Of a stretch of DNA of 64,000 nt, positions 4,962 through 38,072 are shown one piece after another. The notes beneath the pieces were generated by a model. That model was not told the origin of the DNA and did no database searches. It was given only the letters and a program-made list of their open reading frames with translations. Position numbers and translations under genes: made by a program. The DNA is from Heliocybe sulcata (Eukaryota > Basidiomycota > Agaricomycetes > Gloeophyllales > Gloeophyllaceae): positions 189,775 to 253,774 of the forward strand of contig ML213522.1 of the NCBI GenBank assembly GCA_004369045.1. The letters run 5' to 3'. How positions within the stretch are numbered: the stretch's first letter is position 1; the number at the start of each line of letters is the position of its first letter.

Positions 4962-6600
4962 CTAATGCACACTCAAAATGCCTGCCCGGATATTCAAATA
5001 AAATATAAAGACTCTTGCCACTTTGAGCTGGGGCTGACTAGAATTAGCTTGTAGAATGGCAGGCTTCACAAAGATACAGTCAAAGTGGGCAGGACTGCAA
5101 CACCAGGTTTCTGTTAACTGTATATGCTCACACCACATTCTGCCTATACCAGATGGGTCACTCGGTGCATGATAGGTGGCTTCTATAGATAAATGTATAA
5201 AAATTGATCCATCAAATGTAGGAAGTGCTTTGGATCTGTAGAGGGTATTTTTCTTGTCTATGCTGGCATGTAGAAGTTGCTGCAGTACATGATGAAGTGT
5301 CATACAAATGGTCCCGTCCATAATGCCTCCTGCCTGGTGAGATTGTTGCGCCCCTATGGGATAAAGAGCCAGTTTAGTGAGTATTAAAACAGTGGGTCAG
5401 GAAACAATGCACAACATCTAGATACTAATTTGATACATGCAGGAACTTGTAGGCTACCAACAGAACCATCTTCATCTACAGTTATAGTGGCTAACAAGGA
5501 CACTTCTTTGGTTTATTGGCTATTTATCTTGATTAAAATAATTGAGATGTAATATTGAAGTCACGTACCTTTGCTCCTGGTAGGAATGAGCCCATGGCTG
5601 ACTAAATCCACCTGAGAAGCAGAAATTTTGTCTAGCTGTTGGTTTGTCAACAGCATTCACTCAAGCGTTTCATGTCTGTTAGACCACTAATCTGGTTCTT
5701 TCACCACTTTGATATGTCTTGATTCTGTGATAGACGATGAAAGGGCTCCCCTTCAGCCACCGGCATTATGTGTCATGTGATGTGGCCACTTTGTGTTTTG
5801 CACTTGTTGAACAAAGTAACCTATTCCTCTTTGGAACTCCATTCAACAACTGCAGCCTTGCCAGCTCACTGGCTGTTGAGGTAGCCCTTACAGACAAATG
5901 AAATCTGTTAAAGGCAGTAATGCAATAATTGCATCTACCTAATGCTTCATAGAATGCTAGCAAGGCAGTGAGAATCCATCATCGCAACCACCTACCTCTC
6001 AAAAGATCTCACGATACTTGGGGAACTGAGTATAAGCTTCATTCAGCTCATGGAGGCTCTTGGGTGTGTGAATGTCTTGTCATGCCAGGTAGCAAAACTC
6101 AAGCAGAGCACATATAGCTTAGACCATTTCACATGGTATCAGACCATCCTGTCCTCTCAGTGCTGTCTTTCAGGGAGTGCCAATGAATGAGCCACCCCTA
6201 ATCTTCATCAAAGCCTTTGAATCATTGCCAGTCTATTGCTTGAAGGAATGACCTTGAGGGATCTTCTTATTCCTGTAAAGGGAGAGACTATCACTATCCT
6301 GGACCAGAATTGAGAGTCCCATATGAACCTCGTGGAAGAATGACACACCATTGATTGATCTCATCCATAAGGGTTATTGCTCTCTGCTTCACTGTGCTGG
6401 AGTTTCAAACACTCTACTACCCACTCAATAAGGTGATCCTTGAATGCTCCCTTGATTAGCTGGTGGAGGATATCTGGAGATATAAGTTCATATATGTCAG
6501 CACAAGGAACATTGCTTGTGAAAGGCAGAAAGTTGAGGTTAGTATCATGCCAACCTATCATAAACTTATGAGTCAAATGGTGAGAACTTGAGCAAAGCAA
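4962..6600 (-). pseudogene. Plavaka-type transposase remnant (first family)
   Basis: Several minus-strand blocks occur in the order expected for a Plavaka transposase, a fungal DDE transposase of the CACTA/KDZ-like group. Near 6500-6400 there is SPDILHQLIKGAFKDH, close to the family's 'TPDILHQL.KG..KDH' hallmark. Near 6230-6200 there is an NDSKALMK block, and near 6110-6000 EFCYLA and LNEAYTQFPKYREIF. Near 5230-5000 are the C-terminal blocks FDGSIF, APSDPSGIG and FDCIFV followed by ARVFIF. The frame is lost between blocks and stop codons intervene, so it is non-functional. A 155-bp Gypsy solo LTR (5738-5892) splits the C-terminal half. It is clearly diverged from the better-preserved Plavaka copy at 27195-37767, which has DLLHEFELG at the matching place, so it belongs to another subfamily. 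Confidence 0.8.
5738..5892 (+). mobile_element. Short solo LTR of the Gypsy family
   Basis: The segment begins TGAAAGGGCTCCCC and ends TAGCCCTTACA. It matches the LTRs of the Gypsy element at 16821-22073, in the opposite orientation to that element, but is internally shorter (155 bp against about 246-266 bp). Flanking bases GACGA (left) and GACAA (right) form a near-perfect 5-bp target duplication, supporting insertion followed by LTR-LTR recombination. It is nested inside the Plavaka remnant. A fossil. Confidence 0.75.
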
Positions 6601-27191: not shown

Positions 27192-27194
27192 ATG

Positions 27195-27209
27195 CACTGC
27201 ATTTAAGGG
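27195..27209 (+). repeat. Left terminal inverted repeat of the Plavaka element
   Basis: CACTGCATTTAAGGG directly follows the target copy ATG. It matches the right end at 13 of 15 positions. Subterminal GACTAG/CCGGGACT repeats follow to about 27260. Confidence 0.8.
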
Positions 27210-27829
27210 TCGTCTAGATGCTCACCGACTAGCCGGGACTTGCTGGGACTAGCCCCAACAGGTCATGATTAGTCGGAGATGGTTGGTTGCCACAAATAGA
27301 TGAGATAAGATCACCCCAACTTGATAAGATCAAGTTAGACTACGTGAGATCGACACGTCGCAGCGCGCTCATCTACTTGCTCTTAGCTACTAGCTGTGAC
27401 CCCCAGCTACTAGCTGAGTGCCATAGTCTCTCCTCGACAATGACGTGCTCTTTGCTTTGCTAAATCTCCAAGTCCCTCAAACTGCATACCGACTGACTCA
27501 TCAAGTTCAAGCTCTGCCAACTGCCCTTTGCAGCCTCGACACAGAATCGTAGCAAGTCCCTCCATTGCTCTGTCCTGTACGCCCACCTTGGCAGCCACTC
27601 TCAGACCCTTGCTCAACTGTCAACTATGCTCTGTACTGCTCGCCATGTTCAAGTCATCATGAAAAGAGGGAGGAACATGCAGTACCTTACCAACATCTGC
27701 ATAACCCGCCGACGATGTAACCTGGCGAGTTTTCCGGCCGGCTATGCATAGGAACTTTGAGCTTCGCCGGTGGTCCCAGCACCAGTCCACTGGGGGCAAG
27801 CCCAATCAGCCAGGTGACGGTTGGGCCAT

Positions 27830-27889
27830 CACTGGCCGGTAGCTCGACCGATCCCAGGTCACTGGCTGGTAGCTCGATCGATTCCAGGT
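27830..27889 (+). repeat. Two tandem 30-bp repeats
   Basis: Two direct copies of a 30-bp unit beginning CACTGGCYGGTAGCTCGA lie end to end (27830-27859 and 27860-27889), differing at a few bases. They lie in the left non-coding arm of the Plavaka element. Possibly regulatory or transposase-binding; not shown. Confidence 0.6.
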
Positions 27890-28346
27890 GTCGCAAGGGC
27901 CACCGGGGCTTGTATAGGAATTGTGACAGCTGGCAGGACATTCCTGCCTGCTGATGCTACGCGCGGTAGCTTGCTGAATGGGCGCATCACACCGAGCTCT
28001 TCATGCCAGATAAGAGTTCGGAAGCCATCACTGAGTAGGCTAGAATGTCGCAACGTAGGTATGATAGCCCAACGTAATCTCATTACACCCTATCGAACAT
28101 GATACCGTGACAGGCAAGAGAAGATGACCATGTATACGACAGCTTAATTTCCCCCTGGACCCTGTACCACTCCAGCCCGAGCACGCTTCGCCACCCTTCG
28201 TGCCTTCAGCCGCTCCAAAGGGTTATCTTCGGAAGGCTCATTTGAGGAGCGGGCGCCCAGTGGTTCCCTTCCATCAAGGGGTGCGCCGAACAATTCACTG
28301 ATGCAATTCCTCTTTCAGTGCGAAGCTACTTGAGCATATAGTGGAC

Positions 28347-29547
28347 TCACTGATTGTAGAACCGGAGCACATCTGCCAACTCGCCATCATCGAATAGGGA
28401 GACCAGATTCCAATAAAAGACCTGATAGTCAAAATCTCGATCCATCTGATTCCATTCTTGGACATCGGAGAGAGCGAAGCGAACCTGAAAGCAAGCACAT
28501 CAGAGCCAGTGACAGGGCAAGATTTACAAGCACACTTAACCTGACAAGCGACATAGGCAAGCGCGCGTGGTGTCATCTTGTCCATCTTGATGATCTTCGT
28601 GACTCCAGCATGTCCCTTTTGCCATCCTGCTGCTTGCAGAGCACTCCCTGGCCCGATGAACATATGCTTAGCACACTAGATCAATAGAGCGCATCAATGA
28701 CCACTCCATTTAGAGAACTTGCTCTTACCCATCACATAACATGTCCTTTGAAGAGGCCTTCCTCAAACTCGTCCTCCTCATACACCTTATCCTCTGGGTA
28801 CAAGAACCGAGGGAACTGGTTGGCTGTGATGTGGACCCGGCCCTCTTTCACATCATTGTTGAACCTTCCTCATCAATGTAATCGGCAGAGACTCTGGAGA
28901 GGAGGGACAGACTTACGATTTGCCGGGTGTATACCCGATGGGCGTGAGAAGCTCTGCAGTGACCTGGTGGTTCCACCCATGGTAAGATTTGAGAGCGTAT
29001 TTGGCCGGGATTGGAGGGTCCAGCGCCTGCGTGTGGTCCAAAAGGAGATAGCCGAGGATGTGCAGCTTCAGCGATGAGGTGTCGTCCCCACGTGCGTCGT
29101 CCACTCCTTTTGCCATCTACAACACTCGTCAATGATGCAAGGCCTACTCGCCGACTAGTACAGCCGACAAACCTGACTGCAGATAGTGCGGTGCACTAGC
29201 CCTTCCTGCGCAAGCTCGACCATCTGTGCTTCTAAAGTTGGGACCACCTTGATCAAAATGCACCAACTCTCGGTCAAACGAGTTTCCCTATCGCATGCAG
29301 GCCGACATAAGGGCATTCTATGGAGCAGAGTGGACAGGTATGGCACTTACTGTACTGTGAGCTCAGTCTCATTGTCACTTTCTCTTGCGTTCATAGCTAG
29401 ACCATGGTGAACAATCGTAGCTATCCTCTCAAAAGGACCACCCAGACGAGCAAAAGTGCGACCATGCTCGCGATAGTCACTCTTGATTGCAACACCACCA
29501 TTCTCGTCGGGTTCCTCAGCATCTTGCCTTATGGTTCCTGCCAACAT
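28347..29547 (-). CDS. DUF6698-family protein carried by the Plavaka element
   Basis: Seven minus-strand exons keep one open frame: 29547-29351, 29317-29173, 29116-28917, 28864 to about 28742, 28675-28541, 28484-28347. The fourth-to-fifth boundary is uncertain, because the frame needs a weak GTTATG donor. Introns are 34-66 nt with GT..AG ends. Blocks recalling DUF6698 proteins, a large Agaricomycete family of unknown function, are DPDENG-like EEPDENGG, GRTFARLGGPFERI, KGVDDARGDDTSSLK, HGWNHQVTAELLTPIG, a 'ITANQFPRFLYPED' block, MFIGPGSAL, and ALAYVACQ followed by VRFALSDVQEW. It ends RFYNQ. I chose the ATG at 29547. An upstream exon (to about 29731, MSPAVQ) may exist but its phase does not join cleanly. 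The gene is divergent from the transposase gene and inside the same terminal repeats. No signal peptide or membrane segment is seen. Confidence 0.75.
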
Positions 29548-30071
29548 TACTCAGCATATATGGAAGTGAGAACAATGAGGTGACATACCCCTTTCACTTC
29601 CGTTTCTCCCTATGACCCTCCCCTTGCAACCTAAGGAACTGCACCACCAGTGAACCCAGTGCATCCCGTGCCGCTGGAGTTAGGGTCTCATCTTGACCCT
29701 CGGGTTGACTAGAAGGCTGGACAGCTGGAGACATGAAGGAGCTGCTATTTGGGAAAGTTAGAGATGCCTGGCTAGCAATCGTACGTCCATTGCTTATATC
29801 GTCTCGCCACACCCCCCTAAGTGTCTGACAATCGTGTGATTGTGTCAGAACCCACGTTCGGCCGGCTCATTTATCCGCTCCGACTCTCCCTGTTCCTGGG
29901 CAGTTGTCAGCCATCGAATCCGACTCATCCAGCACCACCAAACTTGGCCTCAGCAACAATTCGGACGGTTTCAACAGTGTCGCTCTGCTGGGGAGTTGCA
30001 CCCTTGGCGCTGGAATGTCCTCTCGCCAACTGCTGCCAGTGGTCATCCTTGCCGCCTTGTGGATCTTCTCA

Positions 30072-33000
30072 ATGTCCTTCCAATGTATTCTGGCATGTTC
30101 CCTCGCTTTCGGCAGTCGGCGAGCCCTCTCGATCCATGAAGCTGCCTGCCCCCACCTTGCCAGCCCAGACGCTAGGTTCCGAGACTTTGCCACTCAACTC
30201 GAGGAGAAGCGTGCCCATAAAAGGCACTGATGCGAAGAATCTGCAGCTTTCCAGTCACAACATGAGGCCACTGCGACTCAAGATGTTGACATGCCTGATA
30301 CCAGTGATGTACGAAGCGTATCCACTGATCGCTTCTCTGTACATGCCTAACACCCTAATTATAGGTATTCATGCATGACCATCATCCGGATACTGTACCA
30401 CTCCCTGTGGCCGATGTCCGTGAGGTTGTACCAGAGCCAACTGGGCGCTCAAAACAGATAAAATGGCCGACTTGGAAGATCCTGGAGCAGCTCCCAGAGC
30501 CACGCAAGATGGAGGTCCAAGCTCCACCTGCAGCTGACTCAGACAGTGCCAGTCCAGACGACTCGGCCTCGACTTATCACACTATCATCTGGCACACCAT
30601 CTGCACCATCGCCAATTGGTTTGGCATCTATCGCCAGTTTCTCACAGTGCCATCCCATCAGCCCGACACTACCATTGCTCTCGATGACCTCTCTAATCTC
30701 CCAAGACCATCCGCCTTGCCACCCACAAATGACCCGAAAGCTTCCTCGCCCCTCCCCTACGCACCATTTGCAAATATGACGCTCTTCCGTTTGATGAATT
30801 GGATGTGGAATGGCTCGCACACAAAGTCATTGGATGAGCTGAATAAGCTTGTTCACGACGTTCTCTTAGCTCCTGATTTTCGCCAGGAACACCTCGCCAG
30901 CTTTGATGCAAAACGTGAGACCAGCAGACTTGACCTATCACTGATGCAGCAGTCTGATGGTAGCAGTAATGCTATAGATGCTTGGCGTGAAGTTGATGTC
31001 TTGATTGATGTGCCTGATGGGAAGCCCCATCGCACAGCAGCAGAGGGTGGAATCCCTACGTTCGCGGTACCCGGCCTTCATCACCGATCAATCACCCAGG
31101 TGATCAAGGCTGCATGGACAGATCTGGGCGGGCTTCGCTTCCACTATACTCCCTTCAAGGAGTTCTGGCAGCAACCTGAGCAAGAGCTTCCTCAACGAAT
31201 CTACGGAGAGCTGTACTTGAGCGATGCCTTCATCAAGGCCCACAAGGAGTTGCTTGAACTGCCTACTGAGCCTGGCTGCACCCTGGAGCGTGTCGTCTGT
31301 GGACTCATGTTCTGGTCGGACTCGACGCACCTGGCGAGCTTCGGGAATGCATCCCTATGGCCCATTTATATGTTCTTCGGAAACCAGAGCAAGTATGACC
31401 ACGTGAAACCGAAGTCGGGTGCTTGTCATCACATTGCTTACATTCCTAAGGTGAGCGTCTTGGCCATTGATCCTTTCATAACATTAACAGCCACATCTCA
31501 GCTGCCTGACACGTTCCATGACTGGTTCTTTGACTTGACGGGCACGGGCCCAACCGCAGATGTCCTGACGCATTGCCGGCATGAGGTGATGCATGCCGTA
31601 TGGAGCCTGTTACTGGACAACGAATTCCTGCAGGCCTATGAACATGGGATCGTACTGCAATGTGGCGATGGCATTATGCGGAGGGTCTACCCATGTATCT
31701 TCACGTACTCTGCCGATTACCCGGAGAAGTGAGTCGGAGACTGTCTTCCAATGTCGGCATATGCTTACTCTGGATATCCATCAGAATCCTACTTGCCACG
31801 ATCCGGAACCTCGGGAGCTGTCCCTGTCCACGATGTAAGACACCCAAGGCAAAAATATCCGAGATCAGAATGAAACGGGATGAAGCTCGGCAGTTGAAGG
31901 ATGCTCGTGTCGATGATTCGTATTTCCGCAGACTAGTCGAGAAGGCCCGGAACTTTATCTACCGGGACGTGAAGGGGGTGAAGAGTAGCTGGGTCGAGAG
32001 TTTGCTCGGAAAGGAATCACTGGTACCAACGAAGGTATGTTCCTATTTCAAATCAGTAGTGCGCTCCACTGCTCATGACTTGTACAGAATGCATTCTCCG
32101 ATAAGCTGTCTAGATTTGGATTCAATGTATTCTCGGTCCTGGTCATTGATCTCTTGCATGAGTTCGAGCTTGGGGTCTGGAAGGCGACTTTCACACATCT
32201 GCTGCAAATATTATATGCTCAGGGAGACGATGCCATTCAGCGACTCAACCAGCAGTGATACGGCCGATCAGGGTTCTGCGCTCCGAAAATGCGTTTTAGG
32301 GTTGTTTCATGATCGCGGCAACGTTGCGACTCTATTGCGCATTCGCTCGCCGCTGACAGCTCCTTGGAAGGCGAGCGACGACTATACTGGCAACCCCGAC
32401 TATTCACTCTGGCAGCGAGCCCGCGACTCTATTCCCCGCAGCGCGGCGACACTCACTCTATTCAGCGGGACTCAATGCAAACCGATCTATTCTGGTCTCG
32501 TGAACTATTCTTGGACTCGGCCACAACGACGCATAAGCCTCGGCCTCCGGATCTTTCCGATCGAGTCAACGGCAACTCGGCACAACACAGTCCGGTCGGT
32601 CCCGAGGAGTCTAGGCCATCGAGTCATTCTAGATCGACCATCCCACTCAATGTCCCGCCTGTCATTCCCATCATTGCCTTCGCCGCTCGTCAGGTCGCAT
32701 GCTCAGGGCGCCCGTACGCATCAACTCACCGCCTCCATCATTGGTTTCGGCTCCCTCCGCGCGACGCATCACTCGCCCGACCCACTACCCCTTTCGGCAC
32801 AACCGCGCCACTCTTCGGCAACTATGCCCACCACTCAAGTTACTGTGGCACCGCCGCATCGACGCAAGGTCTCGTACGGCGTGGCACGAGGACAAGACTC
32901 GTCACGCATTTCAAGCTAGGCTACGAGCGTACTCATGCAGGCACCGCGCCGCGAGGAGATGATAGGATTGGTAGGAAAGTTAGGTACAGGGCAGTTGGGG

Positions 33001-35537
33001 CGATGCGCGCCTTGTGGACGAGCGCGCGGCGTAGGAGATGGTTGGTGGAAGATGGTTTTCTCCTCATGTGCGACTGCGAGTAGTGTAGCGGTGACATTTG
33101 TACTTAAACCCTTTCTCTTTGTCTCGAAAATGCAAGTTATCTTCACCCTTCGTATCTCGTTCTCGGCGCAAGAGTTTCCTCTAGAGTATAAGGCTTTCGA
33201 CGGTCTTCCGACTTCACCCAGAGTTTACGCGAACCTTCCGACAGTGCGCGCGATCAGTGAGCTCTTTCGTTTCAAAGTTTCTCTTAAGTCCGGCCTCGTG
33301 CGCCACCCGTCTCGTTAATCGCGTTCGAGTCGTCTCGAGTTTTAGAAGCATCGCGCATCGCATCGACAGCATTGTACGCGTGCCTCGATTGCATCGCGTA
33401 GGCGATCCCGATCCCGCTCCCTCCGAGACCGTGCGACAAGCGCACGCTCCGCGACAGCCCGAGAAGTTATCGCACCAAGCGCGCACCGAGTGCGTTAGAA
33501 TCGCATCGTCAAGCGGAGTACGATACAAGCGTCTCCCGAAGTGAGCGTATCGAATTGAGACTGCCGCATGACTGCGACTGGTCTGCGCCAAACTACCTTT
33601 AGCCCCACCTATACGTCTTACCCTACCCTATCCCTCCGAATGTCTATTATACCCTTCGTCGCCCCGGACCTCGCAGCCATCTAGCACCAAGGGATTGGTG
33701 CTACGCTTTGTGGTTGTTGTTCCCCTTTAGGTCTGTGCGGGTTTCGTCGCGTGTTAGTGCCTTTCAGCGGTAAGTATAGTTCCTAGCACCCCTTCCGCGC
33801 AATAACAAACTGGGTATAGATTCCATAAGATCCCAACATTCGGATGGTCCACTATTCGATGTTTTTCAAATAATGTCTCCGCCATGAAGAAGCTGGCTGG
33901 GCGGGACTTCGGGGTCATCCTCCAGGTATGTGCGCATGGTTGTTTAGACTGGAATACTCGACTGACACAACTTCACAGTGCTCATTACCCATCTTCGAGG
34001 GCCTGCTCCCAGAGCCGCATGACAAGCGCATACAAGATTTGCTCTTTGCATTGGCCAACTGGCATGCATGTGCGAAGCTGCGATTGCACACTGAGAGCAT
34101 GCTCAGTCATCTTCATGCGGCCACATCATACCTTGGCTCGCAACTCCGCCATTTTGTCAAGACAACATGTCCTCACTTCGATACCAAGGAGCTACCATGC
34201 GAAGAGGCTGCACGGGTACGTCGTCGACAGAAGCAAGGCACAACAGGTGCGAATCTGTCAAGTTTGCCCGGAGCACACAATCGCAAGTCTCTCAACCTCT
34301 CCACTTTCAAACTGCATGCGCTTGGCGATTACGCAACACAGATTGAGCTGTTCGGGACAACAGACTCATTCTCAACACAGACAGTAAGTTCGTTACTGTA
34401 TTCCGCGCAGCATCTCTGAGCTGCAATGTCAGGGCGAGATGGAACATAAGTTTGTGAAGAAATACTATGCCAGGACGAACAAGAACAATGCTACTCAGCA
34501 GATAGCATGACTGGAACGTCGTGAACAGGCTATGTCTCTGCAAAGTTGTAATCAAACCCATGGTCGAAAGAAGCCAGGTGTACTCTTCAAAGGCGAAGAG
34601 ACTCTGCCGTTTACTCCGCCTGATATACATCATCACATTTCACCATCACGTAACTTTCCCTTATACGTCCCGCAATGGTTGCACAATAACTCGGACGACC
34701 CAGCTCTTAAGGTGAGTCGCGTGTGATCTTGATCATGGGAACGGTCGTACTGAAAAGCCGTCTAGGATTTCATGCCGAAGCTCAAGGACCACCTCTTGGA
34801 ACGTCTTCAAGACCCTGACTTGGCAAGCGAAGGCAGAATCTTTAGTGAGGACAAGCGCACTCGGCTTGTCATCATTGGGGATCGTCTATTCAAGCACAAG
34901 ACAATCCAGGTAAATTACACCACCTACGATGTGCGTCGCGAGCAGGATTCCATGAATCCTCGAACACATTCCGACATCATGATGCTCCAGGGTGATCTCG
35001 AGAGTGCCGAACATCCCTTTGCCTACGGACGGATACTGGGGATTTTTCATGCGGATATACTGTACAACATGCCGGGTGCAGAGCCCACGATTACTCCTAT
35101 GGAATTCCTGTTTATACAATGCTTCTCTCTCGACAACCACTGGAAAGCGGGCTTCTCGAGACGCCGACTCTTTTGTCTTCGATTTCTGCCAGTGAGAGCT
35201 AAATTCTTTGTATTCCAGGTTTGTTGATCGTGACATGTATATGAGGTATAAGGGGGGCGGGGTGGGCCATTACGCAGTCTCACCAGTTGACGGCACAGGT
35301 CCTGGTCGTGAGGAGGATGAGATAGATGGCCCAGAGGACCATGAAGAGCTGATAAGCGGGGCTGCTGAAGGTGAGGACTCAGATGATGAAGTGGAGGATG
35401 CAGAGGATTCAGAGGTCGACGAAGTAGATGGGGAGGATGGTGAAGATGGGGAGGATGGTGAAGACGGGGAGGATGGAGGTGGTGGCGATGGCGAGGAGGA
35501 AGGGGAGGAAGCACTGGCTGGGTACGCAGATCTGTAG
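30072..35537 (+). pseudogene. Plavaka transposase gene (second family), interrupted
   Basis: A multi-exon DDE-type transposase that would cut and rejoin the element at its CACTG ends. The N-terminus has a C-x3-C-x12-H-x4-C finger-like cluster (30083-30150). The core (from 30371) has PFANMTLFRLMNWMWNGS, LNKLVHDVLLAPDF, GELYLSDAF, MFWSDSTHLASFGNASLWP and FFGNQSKYDHVKP. Next come YEHGIV, FTYSADYPEK, CPCPRCKTPK and DLLHEFELGVWK, and after the insertion IPTFG.STIR.FSNNVSAMKKLAGRDF and LRLHTESMLS. The C-terminus has RFVDRDMYMRYKGGGVGH and a long acidic tail of Asp, Glu and Gly. Introns include 31451-31501, one just after 31732, and ones near 33927, 34384 and 34711. The gene is disabled by a 1.55-kb insertion (32256-33807) and an in-frame TGA near 34508. 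Otherwise the frame is well kept, so loss was recent. Confidence 0.85.
32256..33807. mobile_element. LTR-like insertion in the transposase gene
   Basis: A 1,552-bp block splits the Plavaka coding sequence between the LLHEFELG exon and the IPTFG exon. It starts TGATACGGCC and ends GCAATAACA, giving short inverted ends (TGATA / TAACA) like an LTR, and it has no recognisable retroelement genes. The flanks AGCAG and AACTG do not form a clear target duplication. The best guess is a large solo LTR or a non-coding LTR element. A fossil. Confidence 0.5.
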
Positions 35538-35617
35538 TAGTTATGCATACCGAATGTGTAGGCATCGCCTGTGGCTGCTATGAAGTTGCGGTGTGCCTGG
35601 GATGCGGAATGAGGAGT

Positions 35618-36357
35618 ATGCGGAGGAGTATGGCAGTATGATCTGCCTGCCGCCGGCCTGCTGAGTTGAAAAGCATGCAGTCAGGGGCCCCTAGAGGTTA
35701 CCTGGCTTGCCCTCGTACGCTCAGGTGTCCTTCTGTGCTTCACCGCCCGACAACTCGATGGCTATAACATACTCGGTAGAGCATGGCAAGGACATTGCTA
35801 CTTGCCAGATCCGGACATTTACAGAGAATGGACTGCGGAAGTTGAGCATTGCCATTGTCCCAAGGGATGTCGGGCTCAATATGATTGTGAGTACTAGGAC
35901 AGGGATGTATTAAAAAAAGGCCTCTTTACTGACTAGGGCATCCTACTGTGCACAGAAGTTAAACATCTCGTTGAACAATGAGCCGTGCGAGATCACACCC
36001 ACAAACCCGGTGATTGTACCTCCTGGTACACCTTCATCTACCAGATTGCTCGACTGGGTTGAGGGACAGGTCAACGGACCGCCGTATCCTGATGTCGAGC
36101 AGGGGAGTGTGGCCAGGCTGGAAGATGGTCAAGAATCGGAATTGCTGACCGCCACGGAATCGGACTCCCTGGAATTACCCCCAGTCCGCTATTCGCCAGA
36201 GGAAGTGCGAGTATTTCTTGAGAAATATCGCGACACTGGGAAGATGCCTATGCCATTTGTAAGTGATATTTATGATTCGGAATCCGGCTTCAACACTCAC
36301 TTATAACTGTGTCTCGTCAAGAACATGCCCAAGAAGAGGAAGCCGCATACCTCGTGA
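35618..36357 (+). CDS. Small gene of unknown function in the Plavaka element, with basic PKKRK end
   Basis: Three exons keep frame: a possible first mini-exon (35618-35635, MRRSMA), then about 35725-35887, then about 35956-36257, ending with a short last exon to the stop at 36357. Introns have GTATGA..CTCAG, GTGAGT..GCACAG and GTAAGT..GTCAAG ends, all in phase. The predicted protein is about 170 residues: an uncharged-polar N-terminal half (FCASPPDNSMAITYSVEHG), an acidic middle with many Glu and Pro, and the C-terminus NMPKKRKPHTS, which contains a classic nuclear-localisation-like PKKRK. I recognise no domain. It lies just downstream of the transposase in the same sense, so a helper role is possible but unproven. 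The first exon is uncertain. Confidence 0.45.
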
Positions 36358-37752
36358 GCCAGGAGAAGGACTGTGTTCGGTGAAAGTACATACAGTAGCA
36401 TTCCCGAACATGTGTTGTAGAGGCCCAGTCACCGTTGGTGCTATGGCTGACCTGGAATGTTATTCAAGCTGCTGTTGCTTATGTTATAATGCCAGACATG
36501 AGTCGCAGATTGCAAGAGAGTGCATACGTGCTACGCACGAGGTAACAACTGATCACCTCAACCACAGTAGACATCCCTATGTAGTAGTTCCGCATACATG
36601 GTCACACCATGGCGAGAGCACAAGAGCCTGGCAGACTGCGAAGGTTGAGTTGGAATGTCTGCATACCCCGGTGAGGCCTTGCTGGGAGGCGCCACCCGGA
36701 TGATGCGCTGCATACGCCACCGGACATTACAGGTTAGTCCCGAATTTGCTGATGGTGCAAGGCCGAAGACGACCTGCAGAGCAGCTCTCGACCAGTCAAG
36801 CTCTACAAGTGTCATTGCTCGAAATGCAATGGGAAATTGCAACCTCGGCATGTCAAGAACAAGCATAAACAAGAAGAGAGCCATTCCAAGAGCCTCAGCG
36901 CTCTCGAGGGCTTTGGATGTGACTTGGAGGACAGACTGGCTGGCCTTCTCAGGTGAGCAACAGCCCGCGATTTGCCCAAGATCCTCAGATGCAAAGCCTT
37001 GCCAGCCCCACAGGCATCCGGATCCTCCACTAATCTCGATGCTCATACCATATGATGCATCTCTAATGCTTCCACTGGCCAGGGTAGTCCTTCACTTCAT
37101 GATATCGAGCCCGACAACCACTCCTTACCTAGCATCTCACTCAGGGGTGAGTATATGCTGAATGCTATGGTGATTGACATGCCAGGAATTGAGGTGAGTG
37201 CTGCTCATTAAATTGCGGTAGTAGCAGGCTCAGTCACACCCCTTCTACACTAAAGACTTGCGTGCATATACCTGCTCCCTCCATGACCAGACTCCAGTTT
37301 TATTCGCTCGACTCCCACAATCAGCTCCCTATGCTACCTCAACTTCTTCCTCGCCTTTCTCACGTTGTATAACCTCGGACTCGACCTCTTCACATCGTCG
37401 CGACTCGCGAGCCTGCAGCACCCTTCGGCTTTCTATCGCAGATATGGGTCGGGACGCATTGCCTGTGCTTATGTAATTTACCAGATCCTGATTAATACAA
37501 TATATTCTGGAATTTTATATTGATTACAGGCAGTGGATACAAATAGCGAAATAGTCCGACCGGCCGTGAGCAGTCCCAGATAGTCGGAGAACGACTATCC
37601 GAAGTAGCCTCAGATAGTCAGATATTGACTATCCTGGACTCGTTCAGCTAGTCGGACGGCGCCCAATGCCAATGTGGTAGTCCTCGTTGTGGGTTGTCGG
37701 CCAGTACCGACTAGCCGGGACTACCTCGGCTTGTCGGGTACCGACTAGTTGT
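36358..37752. other. Non-coding right arm of the Plavaka element
   Basis: No motif-bearing frame with splice continuity is visible. The last 200 bp (37556-37752) hold many short GACTAG, GACTATC and AGTCGG repeats that resemble those at the left end, consistent with subterminal transposase-binding repeats. Confidence 0.5.
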
Positions 37753-37767
37753 CCCTTGAACGCAGTG
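37753..37767 (-). repeat. Right terminal inverted repeat of the Plavaka element
   Basis: The inverse of CACTGCGTTCAAGGG is followed by the target copy ATG (37768-37770). Subterminal repeats with GACTAG and AGTCGG cores extend inward to about 37556. Confidence 0.8.
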
Positions 37768-38072
37768 ATGCTCCTGCTTCCCATCAGACTCAGGAGGGTC
37801 CGGGAAGTATGGTCATGCAAATAAGGAAGGATCTCCAGACACAGGAGGAGGGGAATGAACTGATGACAATACTCTGCTGTCCAGCAGCCAAGGACAAGAG
37901 CAAGAGGGGGTAGGGGATGTAATGGGTGCAACCAAACTGCTCATGATTCCATGAGGAAAGAACTAGAGACAGCATTCCAGACTTTCCAAACAGATTATCC
38001 AATCCTCACAAAGAACCTGATATGATAATATAGACCTTAATACTTAATATACACCTATAATGGCAATGAAAC

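Follow-up and report, generated by a model that had tools for sequence, protein, structure and literature searches.

We analyzed a 64,000-nucleotide stretch of contig ML213522.1 of the Heliocybe sulcata genome assembly GCA_004369045.1 (C20:189775–253774 in our contig numbering, hereafter the window) and identified in it a Plavaka transposon that holds two genes, one for the transposase and one for a protein of the DUF6698 family. The founding paper on Plavaka transposons is reportedly that of Iyer et al. 2014. The genome searched, the only fungal genome covered, comprises 31.6 Mb in 51 contigs, and all counts of genome matches are lower bounds because the search scores the best candidates only. 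The curated cut-offs are 23.7 bits for PF20414 (DUF6698) and 26.3 bits for PF18759 (the transposase). The gene families found fit an Agaricomycete origin of the window.

The Plavaka element occupies positions 27655 to 36754 on the plus strand, is 9100 bp long including a 1.5-kb repeat, and contains both the DUF6698 gene and the transposase gene, as a previous interpretation of this DNA made without database searches (the sequence-only reading) had proposed. Its edges read CATCATGAAAAG at 27655 and TTTGCTGATG at 36754, giving CATCA..TGATG termini of the PlavakaB type, and GT stands on either side (27653–27654 and 36755–36756, neither assigned a strand). The two GT copies were recognized as a 2-bp target duplication by comparing the junctions with empty sites in contigs C1 and C17. 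When the window flanks are joined with one GT, they agree with the C1 site at 77 of 80 bases (3 differences) and with the C17 site at 70 of 80 (10 differences), which indicates that the inner boundaries are not due to chance. At the GT position itself, both empty sites have GC; the junction length is as expected from a 2-bp duplication, and the lines differ there by a single substitution. The right end of the element resembles ends of related elements in C13 (382822, 389561) and C10 (6204). Scanning the left end for sigma-70 promoters yielded no hit, a result that is not meaningful for a fungus.

The sequence into which the Plavaka element inserted is itself a transposon. Positions 27195 to 37767 (no strand assigned) are delimited by CACTG ends and by the target site duplication (TSD) ATG at 27192–27194 and 37768–37770. 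The outer element's own length is about 1.47 kb (27195–27654 plus 36757–37767), split by the Plavaka element, and no gene was found in these 1.47 kb. A genome scan for its end with at most one mismatch gave 16 matches, compared with 4 for a reversed control pattern, and copies with the same ends are present at C1:2286172–2287621 (TSD AGT/AGT) and C17:137807–147825 (TSD AGC/AGC). Both copies are without the segment corresponding to window positions 27655–36754 and without one adjoining GT. With CACTG ends, 3-bp TSDs in three copies (ATG, AGT, and AGC) and subterminal repeats, the outer element is a CACTA/EnSpm-like non-autonomous transposon. The CCGACTAG-like repeats at its ends occur 9 times in 390 bp against 0.1 expected, a count for which the 390 bp were chosen post hoc and which compares with 7 of 100 control windows having some 8-mer at least 9 times. 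These repeats are part of the outer element, not of the Plavaka element. A different insert, about 8.7 kb long, interrupts the copy at C17:137807–147825; Transposase_21 (tnp2) and an HD domain match this insert weakly, both under the curated cut-off.

The sequence-only reading had described a single CACTA-like element with CACTG ends that carries both genes. The CACTG ends, the ATG duplication and the subterminal repeats do enclose both genes, and in this respect the description was accurate; the same ends are not, however, those of the element to which the transposase and DUF6698 belong. Because copies without the block exist in C1 and C17, and because the block has its own CATCA..TGATG ends flanked by GT on both sides, we conclude that it is a separate transposon inside the CACTG-ended element. 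Since the CACTG ends belong to the outer element, the DUF6698-bearing element lacks the CAC..GTG ends and the 3-bp duplication of its own that are expected of CACTA/EnSpm, and instead has the CATCA..TGATG termini and 2- or 3-bp duplication described for PlavakaB in the available text of Kojima (PMC12730594). The relatives in C13 and C10 also carry CATCAGC-type ends, not CACTG. The possibility that a single large CACTG element gave rise to the copies at C1 and C17:137807 by internal deletion was dropped: a shared internal deletion is conceivable, yet deletion edges that coincide with CATCA..TGATG termini and a GT target duplication would then be unexpected. We regard the single-element model as very improbable.

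The DUF6698 gene lies on the minus strand at 28144–29734. In a hand-chosen splice model (the splice sites of all DUF6698 gene models were picked by hand), it consists of eight exons at 29734–29598, 29527–29351, 29287–29173, 29116–28917, 28864–28741, 28675–28541, 28484–28351, and 28297–28144, one more than the seven exons originally counted. The family assignment, first made from sequence blocks in the exons, was borne out by the Pfam profile search: the spliced protein matches PF20414 over profile positions 1–206 of 206 (E-value 4e-53, 180.6 bits), and exon-by-exon matches on the minus strand span 28344–29110 (C20:218118–218884). The reading frame is less intact than had been thought. Two in-frame TGA codons are present when the donor sites that match the gene structure of the relatives in C10 and C13/C17 are used, and only weaker splice donors avoid both and leave an open frame of 391 amino acids. 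Among the four DUF6698 sequences of this genome, a Pfam search with E-values up to 1 detected only DUF6698 and no dioxygenase or chromatin domain. Relatives were found neither in viral contigs, searched with the DUF6698 alignment and the C17 protein, nor in prokaryotic genome contigs, searched with the C13 protein. Basic stretches occur near the ends of the DUF6698 proteins, and we read them as putative nuclear signals.

The transposase gene is multi-exon, lies on the plus strand, and has the approximate limits 30365–36264. The PF18759 match at 30365–31732 has an E-value of 3.2e-20 and 73.1 bits, its best stretch covering profile positions 49–164 of 325, and a tblastx match to C10 extends to about 36264. 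All of the motifs D, D, C(2)C, H, and E, whose order in the CMCT clade is given in the available text of PMC12730594, are present in this order on the plus strand: SDSTHLASF (31316–31342) and SADYPEK (31709–31729) with the putative first and second catalytic D, CPCPRC (31819–31836) as the putative C(2)C motif, HEFELGVW (32157–32180) as the putative H motif, and FEGLLPEPHD (33994–34023) with the putative catalytic E. Between H and E, a 1.5-kb repeat resembling a solo long terminal repeat (TG..CA ends, no strand assigned) occupies about 32256–33765, its flanks GCAG and GCGG being alike at 3 of 4 bases. It has at least 43 further genome matches, each about 670 bases long or longer (39 scored out of 165 candidates), and its sister copies have TG..CA ends, with a 4-bp duplication in 7 of the 10 whose flanks were inspected by eye; in each of these seven duplications, CG is central, also by eye. 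An in-frame TGA at 34508–34510 on the plus strand lies inside the tblastx match to C10. The window transposase is disabled by the repeat and this stop, in agreement with the sequence-only reading, and the window copy as a whole is dead, with two TGA codons in its DUF6698 gene under homologous splicing. The transposase region 35300–35530 encodes a long acidic repetitive stretch (DGE runs) with tblastx partners at the corresponding position of C13 and C17. A fragment of a different Plavaka transposase lies outside the element, at window positions 6418–6564 on the minus strand (PF18759 positions 275–325, 58 bits).

A PF20414 profile search of the genome gave three loci over the cut-off, in C13, in C17, and in the window. 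Another locus, the fourth, came to light through the transposase most closely related to that of the window, which sits at the start of contig C10: the DUF6698 gene beside it has N-terminal exons only, the rest being off the contig, and accordingly three of the four spliced proteins match PF20414, with C10 contributing the N-terminal part alone. The DUF6698 models in C13 (8 exons, 405 amino acids) and C17 (7 exons, 373 amino acids, C17:67084–68529, beside its transposase) are complete. PF18759 has at least 39 matches in the genome. In a tree of 17 transposase cores, all from this genome (the fragments C41:57258, C20:196192, C9:805163, and C8:1186119 were excluded), the C13, C17, C10, and window transposases form one clade with a support of 0.965, a long stem, and inner supports of 0.924 and 0.988. 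The clade members are also set apart by their best single PF18759 matches, which reach 34–59 bits (73 for window 30365–31732 as a whole); elsewhere, ten others have 217–373 bits, C9 and C8b about 105, C24 58, and C29 38. A DUF6698 gene adjoins all four transposases found in this clade and none of the 13 others in the tree, the latter because no further DUF6698 locus outside the clade was found genome-wide; the only other match, in C11, was insignificant (E-value 0.52).

The sequence-only reading had expected DUF6698 genes to lie closer to Plavaka transposases than chance would place them, and in this one genome the expectation was supported. All three Pfam-detected DUF6698 loci are within 3.2 kb of a Plavaka match (1.8, 2.0, and 3.2 kb). 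Only 0.64% of the genome is within 4 kb of any of the 21 matched Plavaka intervals, and three independent hits would occur by chance with a probability of about 3e-7. Because transposons cluster, the 1.5-kb repeat was taken as a control: of 43 repeat matches, 2 have a Plavaka match at 4 kb or less and 4 at 10 kb or less, and three of three at the 4-kb control rate would have a chance of about 1e-4. These 43 of 56 repeat matches, a few of them pieces of one copy, remained after 11 short fragments and 2 outer-element matches were dropped. The divergent orientation that had been proposed along with this proximity is not a rule: the two genes diverge in the window and C10, whereas in C13 and C17 they stand in tandem on one strand, with DUF6698 downstream. 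In the two elements with defined boundaries, DUF6698 is directed toward one element end and stops about 400–490 bp short of it (28144 against 27655 in the window, 383217 against 382822 in C13), so that between them the transposase direction is what differs.

Sequence comparison of the copies points to selection on both genes. Between the window and C10, differences at codon positions 1, 2, and 3 number 15, 12, and 31 in 47 codons of DUF6698, and 9, 13, and 55 in 91 codons and 22, 12, and 53 in 86 codons of the transposase; being mostly at third positions, they make both genes look under protein-level constraint. The window DUF6698 shares 44% with the C10 part, 24% with C13, and 27% with C17, and the C13 and C17 proteins match at only about 25–33% in local alignments while both models remain complete and spliceable. 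A motif like FAR....F..I..I..HGL precedes the Pfam domain in all four (with variations in C13), and the full models have several introns at matching places, as judged by eye. The shared motif, introns, and constraint fit one old acquisition of DUF6698 that was kept by selection.

These data also bear on the view that DUF6698 is a host gene carried as passive cargo, with no benefit to the element. Its ordinary introns and its varying orientation to the transposase are what such cargo might show, and host retention could explain the C17 locus, where DUF6698 is complete and no element ends are detectable. On the other hand, no DUF6698 copy was found in the genome outside the transposase clade, all four clade members have the gene, and the C10 and window copies look constrained. 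We consider passive cargo quite improbable and hold it to be highly probable that DUF6698 is a resident gene beneficial to the element.

The C13 element provides the second set of boundaries for this family. It spans C13:382822–389561 (6740 bp), encloses the transposase and DUF6698, and ends in CATCAGCAAATTC and, reversed, CATCAGCAAATCC, again CATCA..TGATG termini. It interrupts a repeat of about 1.1 kb (region C13:382469–390303), all 13 other matched copies of which are uninterrupted, and the two halves of the repeat overlap by 3 bases (2 in C10); the C15 copy was inspected directly. The sequence ACC is common to both junctions, and the right one has two additional bases. The boundaries were set by this interrupted host repeat, as a search for CA..TG end pairs with an exact TSD around the C13 and C17 loci gave only chance-level candidates. 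Elsewhere in the genome, there are 15 left-end and 15 right-end matches to the C13 element, 12 pairs of which span 822–1093 bp, showing that these ends have been mobilized. Two of the short derivatives, inspected over their full length, share the ends of the C13 element; one is flanked by a clean TC duplication, and in the other AAG is shifted by one base. Within 400 bp of the C13 ends, a TGGCCATC-like site has 12 hits against 0.4–0.5 expected; since palindromes count twice, these hits represent about 8 distinct sites. In C10, the right end at 6204 is TTTTGCTGATG, and the sole other genomic match of the right part is 54 bp in the window.

We consider it probable that the window holds a dead copy of a two-gene PlavakaB-type transposon that produced a 2-bp duplication on entering a CACTG-ended element, and that DUF6698 is resident in this transposon and helps it. 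The occurrence of DUF6698 beside one transposase clade throughout the genome suggests that the protein works for the transposon. The Plavaka transposase would cut and join at the CATCA ends. The DUF6698 protein would enter the nucleus and, like TNPA in plant CACTA elements, may work at the ends of the element, either as an accessory factor in transposition or as a regulator. For a second gene under constraint in a CACTA-related element, the simplest function would be to encode a DNA-binding protein that partners the transposase and recognizes repeated sites close to the element termini, and the TGGCCATC-like sites at the C13 ends are what TNPA-type binding would need. By analogy, a role like that of TNPA in particular is possible, although we would put it somewhat short of an even chance. 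A wider reading, which appears to us about as probable as its opposite, is that the entire DUF6698 family arose in transposons and supplies a PlavakaB branch with its second protein, which is either required for transposition or regulates it.

Several observations weigh against this interpretation. Repeated end sites are present in C13, whereas no repeats above control occur at the ends of the window Plavaka element, and in 2 out of the 60 control pairs taken from the window some 8-mer occurred 16 or 17 times, above the C13 repeat count. A PDB sequence search with the DUF6698 alignment and E-values up to 10 gave no match, and no DNA-binding fold is shown by it. Gene order is not constant across the four loci, and contig C10 includes neither the left end of its element nor the greater part of the DUF6698 gene. 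For C17, no pair of ends convincingly enclosing both genes was found, and this locus possibly represents retention of DUF6698 after decay of the transposon. A candidate pair at C17:61779–63014 was rejected as belonging to another short Plavaka-type element, which measures 1.24 kb, ends in CATCAGG..CTGATG and is flanked by AA at either side; segments of this short element are also present close to Plavaka transposases, at C6:1.29 Mb and C8:1.29 Mb. Finally, the C29 transposase stands next to the clade in the tree, and the tally of transposases with DUF6698 would be four of five if it were counted as a member. Its position has a weak support of 0.601 and a very long branch of 2.35, and no DUF6698 match was found in the 9 kb around it at E-values up to 0.05; on these grounds it was not accepted as a fifth member.

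The main rival to a TNPA-like role is that DUF6698 is an anti-silencing protein, comparable to TET/JBP or VANC, which lifts host repression and takes no part in DNA cutting or joining. A constrained second gene linked to the element fits this equally well, VANC offers a precedent (PMC10398659, in the portion available), and the TET-bearing Plavaka families reported by Kojima all belong to PlavakaB, as far as the available text of PMC12730594 goes. The Pfam result for the four DUF6698 sequences, free of dioxygenase and chromatin domains, speaks against it. The present data do not separate the two roles, and we judge the anti-silencing function to be unlikely, if less so than passive cargo.

Should the association found here extend to other mushrooms, this Pfam family without a known function would be assigned a place and a role that can be tested, and genome annotations in which DUF6698 genes are taken for host genes would in fact be counting transposons. 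Plavaka elements would also gain a second accessory gene, beside TET/JBP. If the family is transposon-born, the swings in DUF6698 copy number among mushrooms, which were stated in the sequence-only reading, would reflect transposon bursts, and occasional copies, of which C17 may be one, would be left intact after transposon decay and open to host use. The C13 family, with its well-defined ends and short derivatives, is a basis for an excision assay with and without DUF6698.

No mention of DUF6698 or PF20414 was found in the literature searched, and the available portions of four Plavaka-related sources (PMC12730594, PMC8955403, PMC8290104, and PMC9674265) do not describe its link to Plavaka; given this partial coverage, an earlier description is possible. 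Among known systems, PlavakaB of the CMCT clade is the closest in the accessible text of PMC12730594: it shares the PF18759 transposase, CATCA..TGATG termini, the 2- or 3-bp duplication, the motif order, a fungal host, and the possibility of a second gene. The difference is that the second gene reported in PlavakaB elements is a TET/JBP dioxygenase, not DUF6698, and that the transposase described here is a divergent branch. Plant CACTA elements with TNPA and TNPD are likewise two-protein transposons of the same broad clade. According to the portion of PMC2613891 available, subterminal repeats are the binding sites of TNPA and Spm/En needs both proteins, and subterminal repeats are also present in the C13 element; the inner element of the window, however, has CATCA rather than CACTA ends, and DUF6698 is without demonstrated kinship to TNPA. 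VANDAL transposons with VANC and TET-carrying transposons, as far as the accessible sources describe them, resemble the present element in having an accessory gene that serves the element, the protein families being other than DUF6698. Pfam states no function for DUF6698 (PF20414), and the full-length profile match in the window places this family inside a transposon.

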